Source of the DNA: a virus
DNA: 64,000 bases
Strand: one strand, 5' to 3'
IMG/VR virus record: IMGVR_UViG_3300044825_000904
Coordinates: 40,272-104,271 of that record
The notes beneath the pieces were generated by a model. It saw only the letters and a list, made by a program, of their open reading frames with translations, made no database searches and had not been told where the DNA came from. This document shows, one piece after another, positions 39,194 to 48,296 of the stretch; the stretch's first letter is position 1, and the number at the start of each line of letters is the position of its first letter. Position numbers and translations under genes: made by a program.

Positions 39194-40552
39194 TTACTCA
39201 TTCATAGACCCTAATGTCGTAGGATCAATGTTTAAACTGCTTACAGGCACTTGATTTGAACGGATGTATACTTGTTGCATCGAAGGATCATAAGTAGGCT
39301 CAAAATCCATAAACACACGCTTCTCATCTTGAGAAAGCACACCATCCAACTTATCAATAATGTTAGCAGCATCTAAGAAGTTCTGCTTCATTTCTGGATA
39401 AGCATCTGTATCAAAGCGTAAAACGTATTGAGATGGGTTAATTCCCATTGAAGGAGCTAAAAACTCCAACAATCCTTCGCAAATACGAGATTGCATAGGA
39501 ATAACACAGTTAATAATCATTCTACGAATAAATTCAGCCAAGTTACTCTCTGTTAAGTTATCAGCATTCAATAAAACGTATGGGTAATGCCATAATCTAC
39601 AAAGTTGCTCCGTAGATAACTTACTCATAGCTCTTAAATCCAAGTCAATGTTAGTTGTTGATAACTTTGTGTAACCAACTTTAGCATTAGACCATTGAAC
39701 ACGACCTTTAGAAGCAGAATTGTAGATTTTATCATACATTCTATCTTCAAAAGCACCTTGTTGTTCTGGATCAAGGTCATCTACGTTTAAATCATCCTTA
39801 TAAACAAAACCTACAGCTCCACGAGTCTCAAAGTTTTCAATACCCACTTCTTCTGCAGCATTAGCCTTTTGTAACACACGAGAACCAGCAGTCAATGGAG
39901 AGAATCCACGAGCAATAGTCTTTTGGTCATTAAAGCTAGGGTTAAATGATCTAAACGATAAGAACCATTCTGGTGCTACATCTTGGTTTAAAGATGTAAT
40001 GTTGTAACCAGTTATAACCCTAAAGCCATCAGTGTAGATTTGGTAATCCCAAGGTGCAATAACGTGTAGTCTAGCAATCTTACCAGGTTTCAATGGGTCT
40101 TCTTCTGCCCAAATACCTACATCCTTTAATAAAAGGTCATAAGAGAACAAAGTATCGAAGAATTGCTTCTGAGTTTGATAACCATTAGGTTTTTTAAGCA
40201 AATCAAGGATTGGATTAGCTTCAATCTCTTTTAAAGATGCTTTACGAATCTGACTTGCCTCCACTAAACTTCTTTGAGTAGGTCTTGTATTTAAAGCCTT
40301 GTATTTAGCTAATTGTTTAGTTTGAGTCTTGTTATTAGCCTGGTACATTTCTAAAGGTACTTCAACTGCTCTTGATGCTATATCAGCCACAATTGAATAC
40401 ACATCCACGTTCATCTCATAGCCCTTTTCTATAGCTTCACGATAATCAGTCTTATACATAGAATAAGCCTGGCCACCAATAACTTTCCAAGGAATTGAGT
40501 TTTTAACCATAGTCATGGCTTTTTTGCCACTAAAAAAATCGAATAAGCCCAT
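39194..40552 (-). CDS. Portal protein (HK97 type)
   Basis: 452 aa. Phage_portal family: IVADIASRAVEVPLEMYQ, NGYQTQKQFFDTLFSYDLLL, KDVGIWAEEDP, IARGFSPLTAGSRVLQKA, and QLCRLWHYPYVLLNADN at the clip/wing. Forms the dodecameric DNA entry ring. It starts 3 bp after the large terminase stop. A second, larger portal in this window lies at 13471-15903. Confidence 0.85.
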   Translation of the reverse strand: MGLFDFFSGKKAMTMVKNSIPWKVIGGQAYSMYKTDYREAIEKGYEMNVDVYSIVADIASRAVEVPLEMYQANNKTQTKQLAKYKALNTRPTQRSLVEASQIRKASLKEIEANPILDLLKKPNGYQTQKQFFDTLFSYDLLLKDVGIWAEEDPLKPGKIARLHVIAPWDYQIYTDGFRVITGYNITSLNQDVAPEWFLSFRSFNPSFNDQKTIARGFSPLTAGSRVLQKANAAEEVGIENFETRGAVGFVYKDDLNVDDLDPEQQGAFEDRMYDKIYNSASKGRVQWSNAKVGYTKLSTTNIDLDLRAMSKLSTEQLCRLWHYPYVLLNADNLTESNLAEFIRRMIINCVIPMQSRICEGLLEFLAPSMGINPSQYVLRFDTDAYPEMKQNFLDAANIIDKLDGVLSQDEKRVFMDFEPTYDPSMQQVYIRSNQVPVSSLNIDPTTLGSMNE

Positions 40553-40554
40553 TT

Positions 40555-41940
40555 TTAGAATATTAAGAGTTTTTTCTTTGAATACTTGGTATATACCCCA
40601 TATCTAATAGCATCTAAAGCGTGATTGAAGTCATCAATTGGTTTATTAATCGGTTTACCACCCACTGTTATCCATTGATAGTTATCAATCTCCTTTTTGA
40701 TGTTCTTTGATCTCCGAGTATAATATACCTCGTATTCACGCAACTTACTTATTCCAGCATTAACAGAGTCATTTCCTTTAACCGCTTTCACGACCTTAAT
40801 CCCTGCTCTCTTTAATTCCTCAATACTTTTAGGATCAGCACTATCAGCATAAATCTCATTCAATTTATCTGGATACATCTTAATCTTCTTAATTAAATCG
40901 GAATTCGTTAATCCCTTCTCATAAATTACCTCGTCAAGGTATAACTTATTTCCGAGTTTTGCAATTCTAATCAGTGAAGTAGGGTCATTAGAGAATCCAA
41001 AGTCAAGTCCGCTAAAGATAACATCAGCATCCTTAGGAAACAGCTCACAAGGCTGCCAATCGTGATAAATTAAGCTTTCTGAACTCGGTTTAGGTGATTG
41101 TTGATATAAAGATTCGAAAGTAAATGGCTCATTCTTCTTAACTCTTAATAATTTCTCCAAGGAATGCTTCTCAGGCCATAAAGCTTCACCAAACTCCCTT
41201 TCATCATAATCATTCTCGGCTTTCTCTCGAATAGCAGGAAATTCAATGATTGTCCAATCGTTATCCCTTTCAAGTAACCTACCAGCTAAATCATCATCAT
41301 ACCACCGAGTTTGGATAAGAACTTGTGCACTATCGTTATGCAAACGAGTTTCCCACACATCGGTATACCAGTTCCATAATTGCTCTTTAATGATAATACT
41401 TTGAGCTTCTTGTCTATCCTTTAGCGGATCATCAATGATTCCAATATCAACAGCAGTACCTGTAAGTGAGCCTCCACGACCTACAGCCCTTAAATAACCC
41501 CTTCTGCCAACAGTTTGAAAGAATTCAGCAGTCTTAACTGCCTCACCCTTCTTCTCCCCTATCCTACTATCTGGATATAACATCTTAAACTCCTCACTAA
41601 GCATCCTACGCTGTATCTCCGTAGAAAATTGTTCAGCTAATGTAGCATTATAAGAAGCCAAGGCTAATTTCAAATCGGGGTTTCTACCAAGCAAGTAAGC
41701 AGGGAAGCTACGAGTAGATAATTCAGACTTTCCGTGTTGCGGAGGCACAAATATCATCAACTTCTTAATCTTACCTGCATATACCAAGTCCAAGTGATCA
41801 GCAATCACCTTGTGAAACCACCTCATATCATAATCAGGCTTGATATAAGAAACAAAACTACTAAACGACCTCCTCGAAAGTTCCCTCGTCAATATTTCTC
41901 TCTCTAATTTCGCTAAGTCGTTGTCTAATTTGGTCATCAC
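40555..41940 (-). CDS. terL: Terminase large subunit (siphovirus module)
   Basis: 461 aa. Walker A in PPQHGKSE (G70-K71-S72), Walker B in DIGIIDDPLKD, coupling segment QTRWYDDDL, then RuvC-like nuclease acids in GLDFGFSNDP, IYADSADP and DDFNHALDAIRYG. Standard T4/HK97-type terminase that cuts and packages DNA. It overlaps the small subunit gene by 80 bp, an unusually long overlap; a later Met could shorten it, but the first residues (LDNDLAKLEREILTREL) look genuine. Confidence 0.9.
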   Translation of the reverse strand: MMTKLDNDLAKLEREILTRELSRRSFSSFVSYIKPDYDMRWFHKVIADHLDLVYAGKIKKLMIFVPPQHGKSELSTRSFPAYLLGRNPDLKLALASYNATLAEQFSTEIQRRMLSEEFKMLYPDSRIGEKKGEAVKTAEFFQTVGRRGYLRAVGRGGSLTGTAVDIGIIDDPLKDRQEAQSIIIKEQLWNWYTDVWETRLHNDSAQVLIQTRWYDDDLAGRLLERDNDWTIIEFPAIREKAENDYDEREFGEALWPEKHSLEKLLRVKKNEPFTFESLYQQSPKPSSESLIYHDWQPCELFPKDADVIFSGLDFGFSNDPTSLIRIAKLGNKLYLDEVIYEKGLTNSDLIKKIKMYPDKLNEIYADSADPKSIEELKRAGIKVVKAVKGNDSVNAGISKLREYEVYYTRRSKNIKKEIDNYQWITVGGKPINKPIDDFNHALDAIRYGVYTKYSKKKLLIF

Positions 41941-42358
41941 TTAATAATTTAGGATTAACAGTATCATTATGAATACTCAAGTCTTGCTCAATACGTTGTG
42001 TGCTCTTACCATGCTCAAACTCCAACATAAAAGCAGTATTCTTTAACTCACCATTGTTTATGTCACCCAAGATAGATGAAGCCATTACAGCCATAAACCC
42101 AGGAGTATTACTATCAGCAACTAAACGCTTTAAATCAGCAACACTCAAGCTACTAATGTAAGTCATCACCTTAACCACCTCAGGTTTACTCATCCTTAAA
42201 CGATATTGCTCGTCTAAGTTCTTCATTACCTCCTTAATTACACTCTTTGGCCTACCATAAGGATTCCTAACCTCTCCAGGCTTAATGGAGTATTGTCTAA
42301 TGTTTTCGTAATTACCCCTAGGCTTCGTTTCAACTAAAGGTTGTTCTTCAGCTTCCAT
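41861..42358 (-). CDS. terS: Terminase small subunit (DUF5681-like)
   Basis: 165 aa. KPGEVRNPYGRPKSVIKEVM is the DUF5681-type N-terminal DNA-binding motif found in small terminases. The C-terminal half is helical and acidic (LSDDQIRQRLSEIRERNIDE). First gene of the siphovirus operon, reading away from the repeat-rich region to its right; the leader is T/A-rich without a recognisable consensus promoter. Confidence 0.75.
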   Translation of the reverse strand: MEAEEQPLVETKPRGNYENIRQYSIKPGEVRNPYGRPKSVIKEVMKNLDEQYRLRMSKPEVVKVMTYISSLSVADLKRLVADSNTPGFMAVMASSILGDINNGELKNTAFMLEFEHGKSTQRIEQDLSIHNDTVNPKLLSDDQIRQRLSEIRERNIDEGTFEEVV

Positions 42359-42503
42359 AATTGTAGTAGTTTATATTAACCCCAAAAAAACTTAGAATTT
42401 TTTTAGGCACTTTTTAAAATCATTTCAATAAACAAAAATCACTTTCACCATTATTATACTTATTATACTAAGAGTATACTTAATATATAATATATATCTT
42501 TTC

Positions 42504-42526
42504 TTATTTATAATCATTCTAAATAA
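42504..42526. repeat. Dyad copy 1
   Basis: TTATTTATAA-TCA-TTCTAAATAA. Its last 21 bp are identical to copy 4. Confidence 0.7.
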
Positions 42527-42581
42527 TACTTAACTTCTTAATAACCAACACGTTATTGATTAAATTCCGCCCCGATTTACC

Positions 42582-42604
42582 CTATTTAGAACCATTCTTA
42601 ATAG
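42582..42604. repeat. Dyad copy 2
   Basis: CTATTTAGAA-CCA-TTCTTAATAG; imperfect member of the same family. Confidence 0.6.
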
Positions 42605-42734
42605 AAAGATTGTGTAAACATAAACATTAAACTCTCTCTAAACAACCATATTCTCTTTTTATTACAATATTCAAATACCATTTGTAAACAACTATTAACC
42701 AAATTTTGCTAGGATTTTTTTGGAGGGTTACCAG

Positions 42735-42915
42735 GAAAAACTACCCCCTCCCCCTTTTGCTACCCAGCTTTTTACCCTTGTACCCCTCTTTTACCCCTGT
42801 ATACCCCTATAATAAGGGCCTAACAGGGTATAAACGTAGGAAACAAAGGGTATACCAGTAGAAAGAGGTGACAGGCCGAGGGTAGCCACCCTACAAAATC
42901 CACCTTTTACCCTTG
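42735..42915. repeat. Cluster of TACCC / GGGTA words
   Basis: At least seven TACCC words on the plus strand (several as TTTTACCC or GTACCCC) followed by several GGGTA words in the opposite sense, in an otherwise AT-rich region. Confidence 0.6.
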
Positions 42916-43160
42916 TTTCCTTGCCTTGTTACTGTTCATATATACACAAAGGGAATACAGCCCTATTATAACAGCGTTAATACCTTGCGTTTAAACCCTT
43001 ATTATTATTGAAGGTATACAAACATACTACCACTGGGTAAACACGTTAATACAAGGCAATACAAGGGCCTAAACAAAGCGTTTAATTAATTAGGTTTAAT
43101 GATCTTATATAGTGGCTATCTAAACCACCTGTTTACCTTGCTTAACTAAGTGTTTATACA

Positions 43161-43183
43161 TTATCTGTAATGATTATAAATAA
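43161..43183. repeat. Dyad copy 3
   Basis: TTATCTGTAA-TGA-TTATAAATAA; degenerate left arm. Confidence 0.5.
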
Positions 43184-43261
43184 GGATTAAAGAAAGAAAT
43201 AAAAGAAAAAGAAAGTAAGCAAAGAAAAAGAAATACAAAGAAAGAAAAGAGAGTTACTTTT

Positions 43262-43344
43262 AAGTATACTATATAATATACTTAATGATATAATATAAGA
43301 GTATACTTAAGGGTATACTAAGGAGTATATTATATAGTATACTT
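43262..43344. repeat. 21-22-bp inverted repeat within GTATAC-rich AT island
   Basis: The arm 43262-43283 and the arm 43324-43344 are perfect reverse complements over 21 bp, each itself made of AGTATACT and TATAATATACTT-like words. The 40 bp between hold two more GTATAC palindromes. A similar AGAGTATACTTA word occurs at about 42468. Could form a cruciform or bind a dimeric protein. Confidence 0.8.
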
Positions 43345-43461
43345 AAGGGTATAATATTTGTAATTGGTAAAAAAAGGAAAAAATTGAAATAAAAAAGCAT
43401 TTATTAAAATATATTTTTATTCCCTTATTCGGTTAAATAAGCCTATTTATACTGTTATCAG

Positions 43462-43484
43462 TAATTTATAATCATTCTAAATAA
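43462..43484. repeat. Dyad copy 4
   Basis: TAATTTATAA-TCA-TTCTAAATAA; 21 bp identical to copy 1 at 42506-42526. Confidence 0.7.
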
Positions 43485-43547
43485 GGTGTATATTCTTATT
43501 ATACAGCGTTTAAACCTACATTTTACCCTGTTTTATATCTTATATCC

Positions 43548-43570
43548 TTATTTAGAACCGTTATAAATTA
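43548..43570. repeat. Dyad copy 5
   Basis: TTATTTAGAA-CCG-TTATAAATTA. Ends 10 bp before the promoter at 43580, so it could regulate it. Confidence 0.65.
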
Positions 43571-43579
43571 GCATTAATA

Positions 43580-43611
43580 TTTGTTTACATTAATTAACTG
43601 CATTAAGTTTG
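43580..43611 (+). promoter_or_regulatory. Bacteroidota-type promoter for first early operon
   Basis: TTTG (43580-43583), 20 nt, TAAGTTTG (43604-43611): a full match to the TTTG...TAnnTTTG consensus. The first ATG follows at 43635. Dyad copy 5 lies immediately upstream. Confidence 0.8.
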
Positions 43612-43634
43612 TCTCAACAAAAACGGTAAACGAT

Positions 43635-43799
43635 ATGAAAAATACAGAAAAAACACAATTGTTTTGGGTAGCAGGTGATCACGTTAAAGGCTTTAAAATT
43701 CACACTAAGCAGCCCCGCCATAAATTTGTAAGAGAGCCTTTTAGCTCTCGCGAAGCTTGCCAAAGATTTATTGCATTGGAATATTTATTAAACGCTTAA
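43635..43799 (+). CDS. Small basic protein, first early gene
   Basis: 54 aa from ATG at 43635 (MKNTEKTQLFWVAGDHVKGF), downstream of a consensus promoter; an upstream in-frame non-ATG extension would include the promoter. Basic, with TKQPRHKFVREPFSSREACQ. No family recognised. Codons such as CGC, GCC and CCC are more frequent here than in the rest of the early region. Confidence 0.6.
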   Translation: MKNTEKTQLFWVAGDHVKGFKIHTKQPRHKFVREPFSSREACQRFIALEYLLNA

Positions 43800-43817
43800 C
43801 TAAACAAAATTACTAAT

Positions 43818-43928
43818 ATGAAAAATTACAAACCTTTTGAAATTGTTTTGATCTATTCTTTTGCGGCTGTTGCCTTTTTTATGGTTATCGCTGCAGCTTC
43901 ACAAATTCTTAACATTTTAAACTTTTAA
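43818..43928 (+). CDS. Very small membrane protein
   Basis: 36 aa: MKNYKPFEIVLIYSFAAVAF followed by FMVIAAASQILNILNF, nearly all one transmembrane helix. Starts after an A-rich leader, between two other small early genes. Function unknown; such peptides often modulate host membrane functions. Confidence 0.5.
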   Translation: MKNYKPFEIVLIYSFAAVAFFMVIAAASQILNILNF

Positions 43929-43932
43929 TCTT

Positions 43933-44058
43933 ATGAAATTCTTATCAAACTTATTAACGGCCCTTTCAGGTGAACCAATGGAGGCCCAAACAAACGAAAT
44001 GCTTTTCGCTTCGCTTACTGTATTTATTACTTTATTAATCCTTTCTATAAACTTTTAA
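43933..44058 (+). CDS. Very small membrane protein
   Basis: 41 aa: short soluble N-terminus (MKFLSNLLTALSGEPMEAQT) and a C-terminal transmembrane helix (LFASLTVFITLLILSINF). Four bases after the preceding small membrane protein; same early operon. Confidence 0.5.
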   Translation: MKFLSNLLTALSGEPMEAQTNEMLFASLTVFITLLILSINF

Positions 44059-44069
44059 AATTTACAGCT

Positions 44070-44513
44070 ATGAACAATTTCAATAAATACGGATACATTG
44101 AGGACTTACAAGACCTTTTATTACAGGCTATTTTAGACAATGATTTAGATAGAGCCGATTATATTGGTGATCATATTGCAGCGGACCTAGACAATCAAGT
44201 AATATATTATCAAGATTGCTTTGAGATTGCTGAAGCCTTAAGCCTTACAAGTTTTACAGGCTATGAACTGGGAGACGCTACCAATATTTCACAATTAGCC
44301 TATTTCGGTTTATACGAGTTTATTAATGAGGAACTAGACTATAATTTTATAGAAAACGCAATAAATGCAAAGGAGGATTTTGATATCTGGGCCGCTTCTG
44401 ATAATTGCATAAACATACCAGGGGGATTGACTCAAACCCAGTGCACCCAATACGGCAAAAATTTCACCTTTTTAGAATTATTTAAATATTACTTACAAGA
44501 ATACGCAAATTAA
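44070..44513 (+). CDS. Unknown acidic early protein
   Basis: 147 aa, very acidic and helical (DLQDLLLQAILDNDLDRADY..., FINEELDYNFIENAINAKED). No recognised family. The strong negative charge and early position fit a DNA-mimic or inhibitor of a host nucleic-acid enzyme, but this is only a suggestion from composition. Confidence 0.6.
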   Translation: MNNFNKYGYIEDLQDLLLQAILDNDLDRADYIGDHIAADLDNQVIYYQDCFEIAEALSLTSFTGYELGDATNISQLAYFGLYEFINEELDYNFIENAINAKEDFDIWAASDNCINIPGGLTQTQCTQYGKNFTFLELFKYYLQEYAN

Positions 44514-44558
44514 CATTTTAACAAACCTTTATTTTATCACACTTAACACACAAAAAAA

Positions 44559-45122
44559 ATGAAAGCATTAAACCTTATTTGCAGCAAAAACGAGCCATTT
44601 CGTCCACAAATGGAATACATTAGACTATTAAACGGTAATTTTTACGCTACGGACGCTATTATCTTAATTAAAGTACCTTTTTACGAGGTGATCCCGAGGC
44701 CATTATTTGACGAACTTACGGCCCATTTTGGCGACGAAATGTATTTCAGTGCTCAAAATTGGAAAGATGCAAAAGTAGAAAAGGGCTGTATTTTTAAATT
44801 TAAGCCTGAATGTGATTTAATTGAAATTTTCGACAATAAAAAAAGCCTGGGATTTTTACAGGTTCATAAATCTAGCGATTTTGAGAAATTATACAGCCGT
44901 TTTCCTAATTGTGACCAGGTCCTACACACAAGCGAAGCACAAACAGAAAGTTTAGAAAGTGTTTCTATTAATCCTGATAAATTAGGGGCTTTATATAGTG
45001 CCATGGGCAAAAAAGATATTAAACTAACTTTTTACGGCCCAGGTAAGGCTATAAAGGCTAATTTTAGAGAAAGCGAAGCCCAGGCCGTAATTATGCCCAT
45101 TACATTAAATAATTTCGAATAA
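44559..45122 (+). CDS. Sliding-clamp-like protein, short form (tentative)
   Basis: 187 aa. The C-terminus ESEAQAVIMPITLNNFE resembles the end of bacterial beta clamps (YVVMPMRL), preceded by the strand DIKLTFYGPGKAIKANF. The N-terminal NGNFYATDAIILIKVPF resembles the clamp element in which a strand is followed by ATD. At half the length of DnaN it would carry at most about two of three clamp domains. Could be a phage clamp or a competitor of the host clamp. Assignment is by pattern only. Confidence 0.4.
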   Translation: MKALNLICSKNEPFRPQMEYIRLLNGNFYATDAIILIKVPFYEVIPRPLFDELTAHFGDEMYFSAQNWKDAKVEKGCIFKFKPECDLIEIFDNKKSLGFLQVHKSSDFEKLYSRFPNCDQVLHTSEAQTESLESVSINPDKLGALYSAMGKKDIKLTFYGPGKAIKANFRESEAQAVIMPITLNNFE

Positions 45123-45350
45123 ATGCAGCGTTTCACAGTAAGGCCCAGCGATCAAATTATAGTAATTTGTCGCTACAGGGGGGAGATTATAGACAAAAAC
45201 CGTTATTTTGGCTATAAATCCATAACAGAAATAAAAGAAAGCTTTTTAGCTTGCCTACCTGTAGAATTCAAGAATACAGGTAAAAGAATAGAATTAACCT
45301 TTTTTAATGTTAATCGAACAGTTACAAAATACGTAAATACATTTAGTTAA
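45123..45350 (+). CDS. Small basic protein
   Basis: 75 aa, starting right after the preceding stop (TAAATG). Beta-rich with basic residues: RPSDQIIVICRYRGEIIDKN... ELTFFNVNRTVTKYVNTFS. Unknown. Last gene before a triple terminator. Confidence 0.55.
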   Translation: MQRFTVRPSDQIIVICRYRGEIIDKNRYFGYKSITEIKESFLACLPVEFKNTGKRIELTFFNVNRTVTKYVNTFS

Positions 45351-45354
45351 AATT

Positions 45355-45377
45355 AGGGCCTCTTTGGCCCTTTTTTT
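45355..45377 (+). terminator. Intrinsic terminator 1 of 3
   Basis: AGGGCC-TCTTT-GGCCCT followed by a 6-7 T run, starting 5 bp past the stop at 45350. Confidence 0.85.
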
Positions 45378-45407
45378 ATAGACTCTATTTTATTGCAGTT
45401 TATTAAG

Positions 45408-45430
45408 GCCCTTTTAGGGCTTTATTTATT
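45408..45430 (+). terminator. Terminator-like hairpin 2 of 3
   Basis: GCCCT-TTT-AGGGC followed by TTTATTTATT. Confidence 0.65.
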
Positions 45431-45433
45431 TAG

Positions 45434-45452
45434 GCCCTGTTTAGGGCTTTTT
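45434..45452 (+). terminator. Terminator-like hairpin 3 of 3
   Basis: GCCCT-GTTT-AGGGC followed by TTTTT. Confidence 0.7.
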
Positions 45453-45757
45453 ACGTTTCTGGGGTATTCCTATTACTGCCCAGGTTTAAACCCTGCAGGA
45501 TCAAAGGAAAGAGCCCAGGACAAACCAATTAAACCAGGATAAACCCTGGACCAATTGCAAGGTATTACCAGGGCTTCAATACTTTGAATTTAAGGCCCTA
45601 AAATACACTAGCCTAATAAATTACACGTTAAAAACATTTTAAACGCTTACAAGCAAAATAAACCCTGTTAGGGGGCAAAATTTAGATTAATATGAGAGAA
45701 TACAAAACCAGTACAGGACCAAAATCACTATTTAGAATGTTTCTAAATAAGCAAAAA
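45453..45757. other. Intergenic stretch rich in CCAGG/CCTGG and GGGCC words
   Basis: About 300 bp without a convincing gene. Contains repeated CCAGG/CCTGG and AAACCC/GGGCC words (CCCAGGT, CCCAGGAC, ACCAGG, CCCTGG). A reading frame from ATG at 45692 extends the next gene by 22 codons, but dyad copy 6 lies inside it. Confidence 0.5.
45728..45750. repeat. Dyad copy 6
   Basis: CTATTTAGAA-TGT-TTCTAAATAA: arms match over 9 bp perfectly. Lies 8 bp before the preferred ATG at 45758. Confidence 0.7.
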
Positions 45758-45937
45758 ATGACAAGTCATAATTCTCAGGGAATTGGGGAAAAAGTGGGCG
45801 AACTCCCGAGAGCAAAAAAAGCTGATAGTCCTGGCCGAAATTTGGAGCAAATCGGTTTTTCCCTGGTGATTTTTGTGATCGCCTTGGTGGGAACTTTCAT
45901 TTTTGTTTGGTATACAGCTCTTAAACGCAATCTTTGA
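45758..45937 (+). CDS. Small membrane protein
   Basis: 59 aa from ATG at 45758, which follows an A-rich tract (GCAAAAA); an earlier ATG at 45692 is in frame but would place the palindromic dyad inside the gene. A polar N-terminus (MTSHNSQGIGEKVGELPRAK) and one C-terminal transmembrane helix (IGFSLVIFVIALVGTFIFVW) followed by a basic end. Unknown role. Confidence 0.5.
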   Translation: MTSHNSQGIGEKVGELPRAKKADSPGRNLEQIGFSLVIFVIALVGTFIFVWYTALKRNL

Positions 45938-45965
45938 AAATCTTTTTAAAAATAACGAATAAATG

Positions 45966-45998
45966 TTTGCAACTATGAATAATAAATGTTTACATTTG
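45966..45998 (+). promoter_or_regulatory. Bacteroidota-type promoter for RHH-like gene
   Basis: TTTG (45966-45969), 21 nt, TACATTTG (45991-45998); full consensus. The ATG at 46020 follows at normal distance. Confidence 0.8.
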
Positions 45999-46019
45999 TC
46001 AAATCAAAATGACAACAAA

Positions 46020-46205
46020 ATGCCAAGAATAAAAACAGTAGAAAATAAGAGAAAAGCTGGGAGACCAAAACTAGCTCCTTCGACCACAGTTTCCTTCAGA
46101 ATTCCGATTCATTTAAAGAATCAAGTTGAGAATAGATATGGGAAACATTGGCCACAAATTTTCAAAGACTTTATAGCCGTTTTATTGGCTGAAGATAAGG
46201 GTTAA
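46020..46205 (+). CDS. Small ribbon-helix-helix-like DNA-binding protein (tentative)
   Basis: 61 aa from ATG at 46020 (MPRIKTVENKRKAGRPK). A longer frame from 45963 includes the promoter and is rejected. Basic N-terminal arm with an AT-hook-like AGRPK, then a strand TTVSFRIPIH and helices LKNQVENRYG and HWPQIFKDFIAVLL: the layout of an RHH repressor. It has its own strong promoter, and it is a candidate binder of the dyad family around it. Confidence 0.5.
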   Translation: MPRIKTVENKRKAGRPKLAPSTTVSFRIPIHLKNQVENRYGKHWPQIFKDFIAVLLAEDKG

Positions 46206-46301
46206 AAACAGTGATTAATAAAGGTGTAGTGCAGTAAAATTTGAAAATTTTTTTTTCCTATTTTCTAAATTTATCACTTTTTGGAAATTTTATTTTTGGG
46301 T

Positions 46302-46646
46302 ATGAAACAAATAATCTATGGCCAAGTGCCAAGTAAGTCTAATGGTTACAGAATGTCTGGACACTTTATGTACAAGAAGAAAGCTGTAATTGATTACGAA
46401 GAATCGTTTTACTTGCAATGTGTGCAATACCGAGACTTAGAGCACAAAGGATTTTTTGAGTTATACCTAGATGTGTACTTCCAAAGCAATAGAAGCGATA
46501 TAGATGGTAGTTTAAAGATTATCCTAGATACACTTCAAAAGAAGGTAAAAGCCTTTAAGAATGACAACAAATGCGTTTTACTCCACGTTAGAAAAGGAGT
46601 TGATAAAATTACCCCAAGAATAGAATTTGAATTGAAGTTTTTATAA
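46302..46646 (+). CDS. RusA-like Holliday junction resolvase
   Basis: 114 aa from ATG at 46302 (MKQIIYGQVPSKSNGYR). RusA features: N-terminal strand then PSKSN, and the catalytic acidic cluster SDIDGSLKIILD (D66, D68, D76) with D88 further on in FKNDNKCVLLHVRKG. Cuts four-way junctions made during replication and recombination, preparing DNA for packaging. It stands alone between the RHH-like gene and the tRNA. Confidence 0.75.
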   Translation: MKQIIYGQVPSKSNGYRMSGHFMYKKKAVIDYEESFYLQCVQYRDLEHKGFFELYLDVYFQSNRSDIDGSLKIILDTLQKKVKAFKNDNKCVLLHVRKGVDKITPRIEFELKFL

Positions 46647-46671
46647 TATTAAAGAATTTACTTGTTTAAAT

Positions 46672-46711
46672 ATACGACTGTAAATATTGGCATTGAGGTT
46701 CTTAGTCGTAT
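46672..46711. other. Inverted repeat ahead of tRNA, possible RNA structure
   Basis: ATACGACT (46672-46679) pairs with AGTCGTAT (46704-46711). A small GCTG-GAAAGA-CAGC hairpin follows just before the tRNA. May be a processing signal or an RNA element; no known family recognised. Confidence 0.35.
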
Positions 46712-46777
46712 AACCCTCGGTACACGGTTTGCCACTGCAAGGCCACAAGTAATGACAGCTGGAAAGACAGCATATTT

Positions 46778-46851
46778 GGACTTATAGCTCAGATGGTTAG
46801 AGCAGGTCGCTCATAACGACAAGGTCACAGGTTCGACTCCTGTTTGGTCCA
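46778..46851 (+). tRNA. tRNA-Met (CAT), elongator type
   Basis: 74 nt cloverleaf: acceptor GGACTTA/TTGGTCC (one T-T mismatch), D arm GCTC..GAGC, anticodon loop CTCATAA giving anticodon CAT, T arm ACAGG-TTCGACT-CCTGT, discriminator A. CCA is not encoded. The anticodon arm (GTCGCTCATAACGAC) resembles elongator tRNA-Met and lacks the GGG/CCC pairs of initiators. A tRNA-Ile with modified CAT is the alternative. Confidence 0.85.
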
Positions 46852-46874
46852 CTAACAATTAATTTTTAACAACT

Positions 46875-47261
46875 ATGATGACAAAAGAGCAATCACACAA
46901 TTACCTAACTTATTATGCCCTATGCAACTTCATGACCGACTTCGTTGATGAGAAATGGGTACACAGTTCCTACAATGTTAGGAAGGTTAAGCTATTAACA
47001 AACCAGTTAAAGCAAGAATTAGAAAAATCAGTTGATCACGTTTTTACCAATAAAAATACCGATGGTGTTGATATGGGTAATGTATTGGAGCAATTTGTAA
47101 ATGCTGCTAATGTTATGCACTTCTTCTTTAAAATTGGTTTATTCCTAGATGAAATGCCATACGATAAGAAGCATGAGCTTAATAAGCGAATCAATGATTT
47201 ATTATTAGAGTATAACATAATTTTAACAACAGATATTAATACAAATGGACTCAATAGTTAG
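46875..47261 (+). CDS. Unknown helical early protein
   Basis: 128 aa, all-helical (EQSHNYLTYYALCNFMTDFV, VLEQFVNAANVMHFFFKIGL). Starts 23 bp after the tRNA. Overlaps the next gene by 17 bp. No family recognised; similar helical proteins are common in early regions of Bacteroidota phages. Confidence 0.6.
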   Translation: MMTKEQSHNYLTYYALCNFMTDFVDEKWVHSSYNVRKVKLLTNQLKQELEKSVDHVFTNKNTDGVDMGNVLEQFVNAANVMHFFFKIGLFLDEMPYDKKHELNKRINDLLLEYNIILTTDINTNGLNS

Positions 47262-47604
47262 TGAAATTATTCAGCAATATCAGATTAGAGCTGAATTTGG
47301 TGAGAAAAAATATGGTGTTACTCTTGATAGAGAGGATTTATCCATAGAAGATTGGATAGAACACGCTAAACAAGAAGCAATGGACTTTACATTGTACCTA
47401 GAAAAGTTGAAGAAAGTGCTTGCTTCTGGTAATTATCCAGAATTAGGTAATATCGAAGCATCACATGAGACTAAAAATAGAATTATCTATAATCTTAACA
47501 GGGTTATAATGTCTCAAGAAGATGAAATTAAAGGCTTAAAAGCCGAAATTGACGAATTAAAAAAGGAATTACACAACAAAACTAAACGTGCTTGGCATCA
47601 TTAA
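47245..47604 (+). CDS. MazG-like/all-alpha NTP pyrophosphatase-type protein (tentative)
   Basis: 119 aa. RAEFGEKKYGVTLDRED, then WIEHAKQEAMDFTLYLEKL has the RA..G.~YG..L ... EH..QE..D...Y pattern of phage MazG-like or dATP/dGTP-hydrolase-type proteins, with E/D residues that could bind Mg. The C-terminus is a coiled coil (EDEIKGLKAEIDELKKEL). Probably nucleotide pool management. Confidence 0.5.
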   Translation: MDSIVSEIIQQYQIRAEFGEKKYGVTLDREDLSIEDWIEHAKQEAMDFTLYLEKLKKVLASGNYPELGNIEASHETKNRIIYNLNRVIMSQEDEIKGLKAEIDELKKELHNKTKRAWHH

Positions 47605-47605
47605 T

Positions 47606-48037
47606 ATGGAAACAGTATTTAAAAAAGGTGATAGAGTATATGATGCCATGTTAGGTTGGGGAGAAATTATTGATTTTAATTATTTAAAGCGTTATTTTAA
47701 TGTTTTATTTGACACAGGAACAAGTATTTATTATTGTGAAGATGGAGCATTATACGATTATGAAAATAGAAATCAATTTAAACCTACCTTATCCTTCACC
47801 GAATACACACTTGAAGGATTTAGTCAAGAATGGCCAGAAGAATTACCTAATATAGGTGATGTAGTTTGGGTAAGAGATCACGATAAAGATTTTTGGATTG
47901 TATCCCATTTTATAAAAAAAGTAGATAATAAATATATAGTTTCTAATAACAATCCATTTACATATAGCTATACAGAATATGATGAATGGAATTTTATGAC
48001 AACAAAAAACCCTTATACAAATGAAGGCAGCATTTAG
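47606..48037 (+). CDS. Unknown protein with two SH3-like/beta segments
   Basis: 143 aa from ATG at 47606 (METVFKKGDRVYDAMLGWGE); an earlier Met at 47588 overlaps the previous gene and is less likely. FKKGDRVYDAMLGWGEIIDF and IGDVVWVRDHDKDFWIVSHF look like two small barrel domains of a type common in Bacteroidota phage early proteins. Overlaps the next gene by 17 bp. Confidence 0.55.
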   Translation: METVFKKGDRVYDAMLGWGEIIDFNYLKRYFNVLFDTGTSIYYCEDGALYDYENRNQFKPTLSFTEYTLEGFSQEWPEELPNIGDVVWVRDHDKDFWIVSHFIKKVDNKYIVSNNNPFTYSYTEYDEWNFMTTKNPYTNEGSI

Positions 48038-48203
48038 ACAGTATTTAGAAGATTTAGAAGGTGGTAAAGTGCGATCAGAGGATTATTACCTTGAGTTAGA
48101 AGAAGAAATTATTAATATCGCTTACGATGCTGGTTTTAGGGATGGAATAAGCCCTGCAGAAGAATTTAATAACGATTACTTTAACTCAAATTATTTAGAG
48201 TAA
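48021..48203 (+). CDS. Small acidic protein
   Basis: 60 aa, helical and acidic (AFRQYLEDLEGGKVRSEDYY, LELEEEIINIAYDAGF). Its 3' end contains the left arm of dyad copy 7. Unknown. Confidence 0.5.
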   Translation: MKAAFRQYLEDLEGGKVRSEDYYLELEEEIINIAYDAGFRDGISPAEEFNNDYFNSNYLE

Positions 48204-48213
48204 TTCTAAATAA
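48191..48213. repeat. Dyad copy 7
   Basis: TTATTTAGAG-TAA-TTCTAAATAA; the outer 9 bp of the arms are perfect complements. It lies about 30 bp upstream of the promoter at 48245, overlapping the end of the preceding gene. Confidence 0.7.
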
Positions 48214-48244: not shown

Positions 48245-48274
48245 TTGTAAACAATAAATAACATACTACATTTG
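48245..48274 (+). promoter_or_regulatory. Bacteroidota-type promoter for replication operon
   Basis: TTG (48245-48247), 19 nt, TACATTTG (48267-48274); ATG at 48297. Same -7 octamer as the promoter at 45966. Probably drives the long, tightly packed series of genes through the helicase at 54171. Confidence 0.75.
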
Positions 48275-48296
48275 TATCACACAAAACAAAAATATT

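Follow-up and report, generated by a model that had tools for sequence, protein, structure and literature searches.

Seven Fur-type boxes at the early and late promoters of a phage: candidate sites for a host iron regulator

Phage lambda has a CI operator region from which a single regulator switches one promoter on and holds the divergent promoter down. The PerR box, TTATAATnATTATAA, is a FUR-family palindrome with a 7-1-7 layout. We describe here a set of palindromic dyads in a 64,000-nucleotide stretch of viral DNA, positions 40,272 to 104,271 of the IMG/VR record IMGVR_UViG_3300044825_000904 (the window, in which all coordinates below are counted), and compare it with these systems and with the Fur box of Riemerella anatipestifer. 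In that Bacteroidota bacterium, the Fur box ATTTAGAATTATTCTAAAT was described together with target promoters and electrophoretic mobility shift assays (PMC5609570), while a fur mutant and mobility shift assays document Fur-dependent control of a promoter carrying ATTTAGAATTATCCTAAAT (PMC10986502). The core of the phage dyads, ATTTAGAATNATTCTAAAT, is identical to the R. anatipestifer Fur box, and the extended form of the phage site is TTATTTAGAATNATTCTAAATAA. From the sequence comparisons set out below, the dyads are probably sites for a Fur-family iron regulator of the host, which would activate early and repress late transcription. Seven copies fall within 5.7 kb, five of them in an AT-rich intergenic region of 1.2 kb that contains the turning point in GC skew between the two arms. 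The boxes and the promoters beside them are as follows.

42504..42526, Fur-type box, copy 1, at +93 from the proposed late start and 78 bp from copy 2
42582..42604, Fur-type box, copy 2, centred at +15 of the proposed late promoter, a repressor-like place
42615..42645, minus strand, proposed late promoter: TTG at 42645-42643, N20, TATGTTTA at 42622-42615, start near 42608
43161..43183, Fur-type box, copy 3, the weakest, in the middle of the intergenic region
43462..43484, Fur-type box, copy 4, with its centre at -145 relative to the early promoter
43548..43570, Fur-type box, copy 5, centred at -59 of the early promoter, an activator-like place
43580..43611, plus strand, early promoter: TTTG at 43580-43583, N20, TAAGTTTG at 43604-43611, predicted start near 43618
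45728..45750, Fur-type box, copy 6, at the start of a small open reading frame (ORF), 45692-45937
48191..48213, Fur-type box, copy 7, centred at -79 of the next promoter
48245..48274, plus strand, promoter after copy 7: TTG at 48245-48247, N19, TACATTTG at 48267-48274, predicted start near 48281

All seven dyads lie where a sequence-only reading of the window had placed them. Six fit TTATTTAGAA-N3-TTCTAAATAA with one to three mismatches, against 0.06 such sites expected per window by chance; none of 100 shuffled sequences yielded six, which contradicts a chance origin. The remaining copy, TTATCTGTAATGATTATAAATAA at 43161, departs from the pattern by more than three mismatches; it scores 23 bits with a weight matrix that was built from all seven sites, itself included. 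Scanning the whole 104,271-bp record with the same matrix returns the seven copies at 23-30 bits and a next best match of 8.6 bits. The hits are thus confined to the seven rather than spread evenly over the record, in line with the earlier statement that the window holds no further copies. That reading had also described 10-bp arms around a free 3-bp spacer. The palindrome stands and the free spacer does not: across 60 distinct sites from related phages, the outer spacer positions are T (78%) and A (78%), and the spacer is mostly T-N-A. The site is therefore better written as 11-bp arms around a single base, TTATTTAGAAT-N-ATTCTAAATAA, which is also the consensus of the 60 family sites and contains the Fur-box core ATTTAGAAT-N-ATTCTAAAT or a near variant of it.

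The same sites recur in related phages. Searches with the large terminase subunit (TerL) as bait recovered 33 related loci, and nearly all of those spanning the region carry the same sites in the same places. The equivalents of copies 1 and 2 on the late side are 76-78 bp apart, and the pair before the early promoter 73-86 bp apart, with these distances maintained while the sequence between the sites has diverged. Ten whole related contigs hold one to six near matches each, and twelve more, reached through a 61-aa protein described below, hold one to five. In total, sites are kept at these places in about 45 contigs of related phages. The boxes do not simply track the terminase, since the cultured TerL relatives Flavobacterium phages tant8-1 and 1/32 carry no box. 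A TerL search of 396 Bacteroidota genomes gave a single match, at 51% identity, with no box in the 4.4 kb around it. The late-arm genes nearest the boxes are listed here.

40555..41940, minus strand, TerL, late arm, used as bait for finding relatives
41861..42358, minus strand, 165-aa gene before TerL, in the place of a small terminase subunit and the first gene downstream of copies 1 and 2

Bacterial genomes place the palindrome at iron genes. The exact 23-mer has at least 119 matches in GTDB genomes, nearly all in Bacteroidota going by record title. Among the GTDB matches listed, 111-115 of 119 are intergenic, the range depending on how ORFs are called; stop codons inside the motif close two of three frames on each strand, so some intergenic bias is expected. 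Genes within 250 bp, again among the matches listed, encode TonB plug domains (13), DUF4856 proteins (6), cytochromes c (5), GlutR (hemA; 3), FUR itself (3) and solute-binding proteins (3), while SufA, SufB and superoxide dismutase, recognised by reading the sequences, also stand beside sites. The motif therefore lies upstream of iron-regulated genes in the presumed host phylum, and some of the GTDB sites lie in prophages. As a separate observation, five Bacteroidales-type genomes (L203, L214, L262, L274, L275) have the exact box 311-360 bp before a DnaA-like gene.

The palindrome is also widespread in viruses. At least 120 stretches of IMG/VR contain it exactly, against none for either of two scrambled palindromes of the same composition. 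Among the matches listed, nearby genes belong to phrog_32199 (21) and phrog_5824 (17) or encode head proteases, terminase and portal proteins, the last from five families with 7, 6, 3, 2 and 2 members. Host contamination was considered as the source of these boxes and rejected, as their neighbours are phage genes. A blastn probe of cultured phages matched 108 records. Phages of Flavobacterium, Polaribacter, Prevotella and Cellulophaga make up most of them, and many of the matches are partial, with weak E-values.

Promoters were predicted as matches to TTG-N18/22-TAnnTTTG, with the start counted as the position 14 bases past the first T in the -7 element. As the sequence-only reading had said, copies 5 and 7 lie upstream of consensus promoters, and both are good Bacteroidota-type matches (TTG-N19/20-TAnnTTTG); the early promoter at 43580..43611 has the Bacteroidota -33/-7 consensus and is kept in relatives. 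Across distinct early promoters of the window's family, the nearest box is centred at -59/-60 (10 promoters) or at -79/-80/-81 (9 promoters). The late promoter follows another layout. In the window it matches the consensus with one mismatch and reads, from a predicted start, toward the gene before TerL; every relative examined has a TAnnTTTG-type element upstream of the copy-2 box, at a distance of 10-12 bp, which places the box at +15/+16. Five relatives (L409-L412 and L418) have a second box covering the -33 element of the late promoter. Host iron genes carry their boxes at +5 to +16 and at -31/-32. By this comparison the late arm is laid out like a host iron gene and the early arm is not. 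On predicted promoters, then, the late boxes occupy core-promoter positions of the kind used by repressors (+15/+16 in all relatives examined, -33 in some). The boxes at -31/-32 were also considered as class II activator sites, an idea dropped because host iron genes share that place. Conserved positions and fixed promoter distances together support the earlier suggestion that the dyads are the operator set of one regulator.

Unrelated phages show the early layout as well. Forty box-promoter pairs, representing 39 clusters of downstream proteins, have the box at -52 to -92 of a promoter with an intact -33 element, with peaks at -58/-59, -68/-69 and -78/-80. A Rayleigh test on these pairs, limited to distances of -100 to -40 and including one pair (L059) from the window phage's own family, gives p ~2e-7 for periods of 10-10.5 bp. 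Such one-sided spacing would be expected if an activator contacted RNA polymerase from a single face of the helix. The predicted promoters thus show the arrangement of class I activator sites: centres near -60, -70 and -80, one helical face and a separate -33 element. In a second group of unrelated phages, the box is at -37/-38 and replaces the -33 element; in genomes, this spacing occurs before prophage-like genes.

Comparison with described systems brings out both likeness and difference. The phage sites share with the R. anatipestifer Fur box an identical 19-bp core, the palindromic layout with a single central base and the Bacteroidota promoter type, and the box at the phage late promoter has a repressor-like place. 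Unlike that Fur box, they are phage-borne, occur as seven copies in 5.7 kb and stand at -59/-79 of early promoters, places that are rare at host iron genes. The PerR box is a related FUR-family palindrome, yet the phage arms extend to TTATTTAGAAT, and the genome neighbours of the phage-type site are iron genes rather than peroxide genes. The lambda CI region resembles the locus in its divergent arms, its multiple sites and a single reader proposed to act both ways by position. It differs in that the proposed reader here is a host metal sensor rather than a phage repressor, and no integrase was found in the window phage. Forsetiviridae such as Freya and Danklef have the same box; they encode a truncated FUR protein of their own, whereas the window phage encodes none.

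No FUR-family gene occurs in the 104,271-bp phage record, and a profile search for a diverged Fur domain found nothing convincing in the window or its family. Early promoters need readers that are already in the cell, and together with the missing FUR gene this favours host Fur. Under this model, iron-loaded host Fur, present at infection, would bind boxes 4/5 and 7 above the intact early promoters and, from -59/-145 and -79, help RNA polymerase there. Fur bound to box 2, whose position (+15 at the late promoter) is like that of boxes at host iron genes, would simultaneously hold the late genes down. Phage replication would add boxes; more speculatively, Fur may then become too dilute to keep the late arm off. 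What the comparisons establish is the identity of the motif, its conservation, its geometry at promoters and the lack of a FUR gene in the phage; host Fur as the reader, a positive effect on early genes, a negative one on late genes and dependence on iron are inferred, the two effects from box position.

Several points weigh against host Fur as the reader. All promoters are consensus matches with predicted starts; the Rayleigh test rests on these predictions, and about one sixth of its pairs are expected background. Host iron genes almost never have boxes at the activator-like places, which are atypical for Fur, so the reader may be another protein that prefers the same site. Near-exact 23-mers number one to five per host genome in ten genomes counted, fewer than in the phage. 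The host of the window phage is itself taken to be one of the Bacteroidota from the promoter type, the motif and the TerL relatives.

The sequence-only reading had named a phage protein as the candidate binder, and the features that bear on this idea are given here.

45692-45937, small predicted membrane protein, preceding the 61-aa protein gene
45967..45998, plus strand, promoter of the 61-aa protein gene: TTG at 45967-45969, N21, TACATTTG at 45991-45998
46020..46205, plus strand, 61-aa conserved protein with N-terminus KAGRPKL, earlier called ribbon-helix-helix (RHH)-like

If the dyads were operators of this protein, it would regulate itself from copy 6, about 266 bp upstream of the predicted transcript start of its gene, and control both arms. 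All family members that extend this far have its gene, a box is retained about 265-290 bp before it in several relatives and stands at -81 of its promoter in relatives L020/L026, and the 26 loci with a homolog all belong to phages of the window's family. The association nonetheless holds in one direction only: the protein always comes with sites, while the same palindrome also stands at iron genes of Bacteroidota genomes and in unrelated phages, where no homolog was found in 0.8-14 kb pieces of the other box-bearing contigs of a first viral set, whole contigs not being searched. The dyad is also the same as the Fur box published for one Bacteroidota species, and an early promoter requires its reader at the onset of infection, before phage proteins are made. 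The RHH label is itself weak and the fold unconfirmed: the protein belongs to no Pfam or PHROG family, its low-confidence model is a strand and one long helix, and no PDB match was found. Its KAGRPKL N-terminus resembles an AT-hook. The alternative repeat GTATACTTA is confined, within the window, to the box-bearing intergenic region, which also speaks against this protein as the reader. We consider it an unlikely one. Equally unlikely is a FUR-family paralog of the host (a PerR or a Zur) or some other host activator that shares the site. In favour of such a paralog, the activator-like box places are unlike host iron-gene sites, the phage core also fits the PerR box written as TTAnAATnATTnTAA, and four streptococcal genomes (L168, L210, L212, L264) place the exact 23-mer ahead of a P-type ATPase gene, at a distance of 59-90 bp, where it is perhaps a PerR site. 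Against it, the Bacteroidota neighbours are fur itself and genes for iron uptake, iron-sulphur clusters and haem rather than a set for peroxide or zinc, and the published box belongs to Fur.

Two further explanations were considered. The boxes might serve chiefly as a sponge, replicating phage DNA titrating Fur and so derepressing host iron uptake and TonB receptors, with promoter effects secondary. Seven strong boxes, more near-exact copies than in any of the ten host genomes counted, would suit this; a sponge, however, needs no exact box-promoter distances, and these are kept despite diverged sequence and differ between the early and late sides, which makes the idea quite improbable. Less probable still are chance AT-rich palindromes or replication-origin iterons, the latter also raised by the sequence-only reading. 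The AT-rich intergenic region with its skew turning point and five of the seven copies would fit an origin, but the copies are palindromes rather than regular direct repeats, are spaced irregularly (78-2463 bp) beside promoters of both arms, and no Rep gene was found beside them; copies 6 and 7 lie kilobases off, next to genes. The shuffles and the empty scans with scrambled palindromes in the whole collection argue against chance. A DnaB helicase gene lies at 52.8 kb of the window.

Phages that encode a Fur DNA-binding domain offer another view of the same sites. In the Polaribacter phages Danklef_1 and Freya_1, boxes precede the portal gene, one gene of the tail region and a gene for a tail protein; next to the terminase, both phages encode a FUR protein of 142 aa (Pfam E 1.2e-7). 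This protein keeps the DNA-binding half of Fur, and its metal-binding half is replaced by a short NGKVFVNVEGEMKETTDPNFIG domain; contig G034 has the Fur DNA-binding domain and the short domain in the opposite order. A FUR gene occurs in one of 50 box-bearing viral contigs. At least 13 further box-bearing loci also have the short domain, in most cases as a small protein by itself. The fused and stand-alone forms are located as follows, by contig and position.

L363:44806-45234, L364:4082-4510 and L362:822-1244, phage FUR proteins with the short GKVFVNxEGEM domain, in either order
L159:2855-3025, L147:180-341, L139:8911-9066, L070:4103-4264 and others, stand-alone short-domain proteins of about 40-110 aa

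Used as bait, the short domain recovered 33 additional loci, 18 of them with a box, whose place is mostly -38/-40 relative to a -7 element; eight scrambled matrices gave no match in 497 kb, and some of the contigs are identical to ones already found by the box scan. Stand-alone proteins often lie 3-5 kb from a box at -38/-40, and two that were tried had no PHROG family. Occurrence as a fusion in some phages and as a separate protein in others suggests that the small protein works with Fur. No such partner was found in the window phage or its family. A broader and more tentative proposal, which we regard as possible rather than probable, is that many Bacteroidota phages have made host Fur an activator by placing boxes on one face at -38, -59, -69 and -79, some with a small MIEIVNGRVFVEGKETVDPTLIGYALLDFAE-type phage protein (fused to a Fur DNA-binding domain without its metal domain in two lineages, stand-alone elsewhere) that would serve as the adaptor making Fur an activator, and that the window phage reads iron for its early/late switch.

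If the host Fur model is right, transcription in widespread Bacteroidota phages, some of them marine, would be wired to the iron state of the host through the host's own regulator, and iron supply would set the timing of infection. Direct activation by Fur in Bacteroidota becomes a question that simple reporters can test, and the motif with its geometry rule can be used to locate phage promoters in this phylum. In the open literature searched, we found no earlier description of a conserved phage operator set made up of Fur boxes, which is not proof of absence.

The surroundings of the boxes hold several smaller features. Copy 6, earlier described as lying just before a small gene, does so or lies inside ORF 45692-45937, depending on the start chosen; a KKADSP-type stretch of this ORF is kept in relatives and the remainder is divergent. 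The repeat GTATACTTA occurs four times in the window against 1.2 expected, always in the intergenic region with the boxes, and possibly marks the site of a second regulator.

42474-42482, 43261-43269, 43301-43309 and 43337-43345, GTATACTTA repeats

Relatives have similar AGTATACTTA runs after box 1. At a larger scale, a relative in contig G001 (39,434 bp, complete-looking) is circularly permuted with respect to the window and colinear only with its ~25.2-62.6 kb, and the rest of the record (window 1-~23000 plus G000:C1:1-40271) holds a second set of phage genes. The 104-kb record is therefore probably two phages joined, with all seven sites in one of them. Read from the sequence, the other part has its own GroEL-like, ribonucleotide-reductase-like and second DUF3799-like genes. 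The early arm also includes a tRNA-Met (CAT) gene at 46778-46852 of the window.

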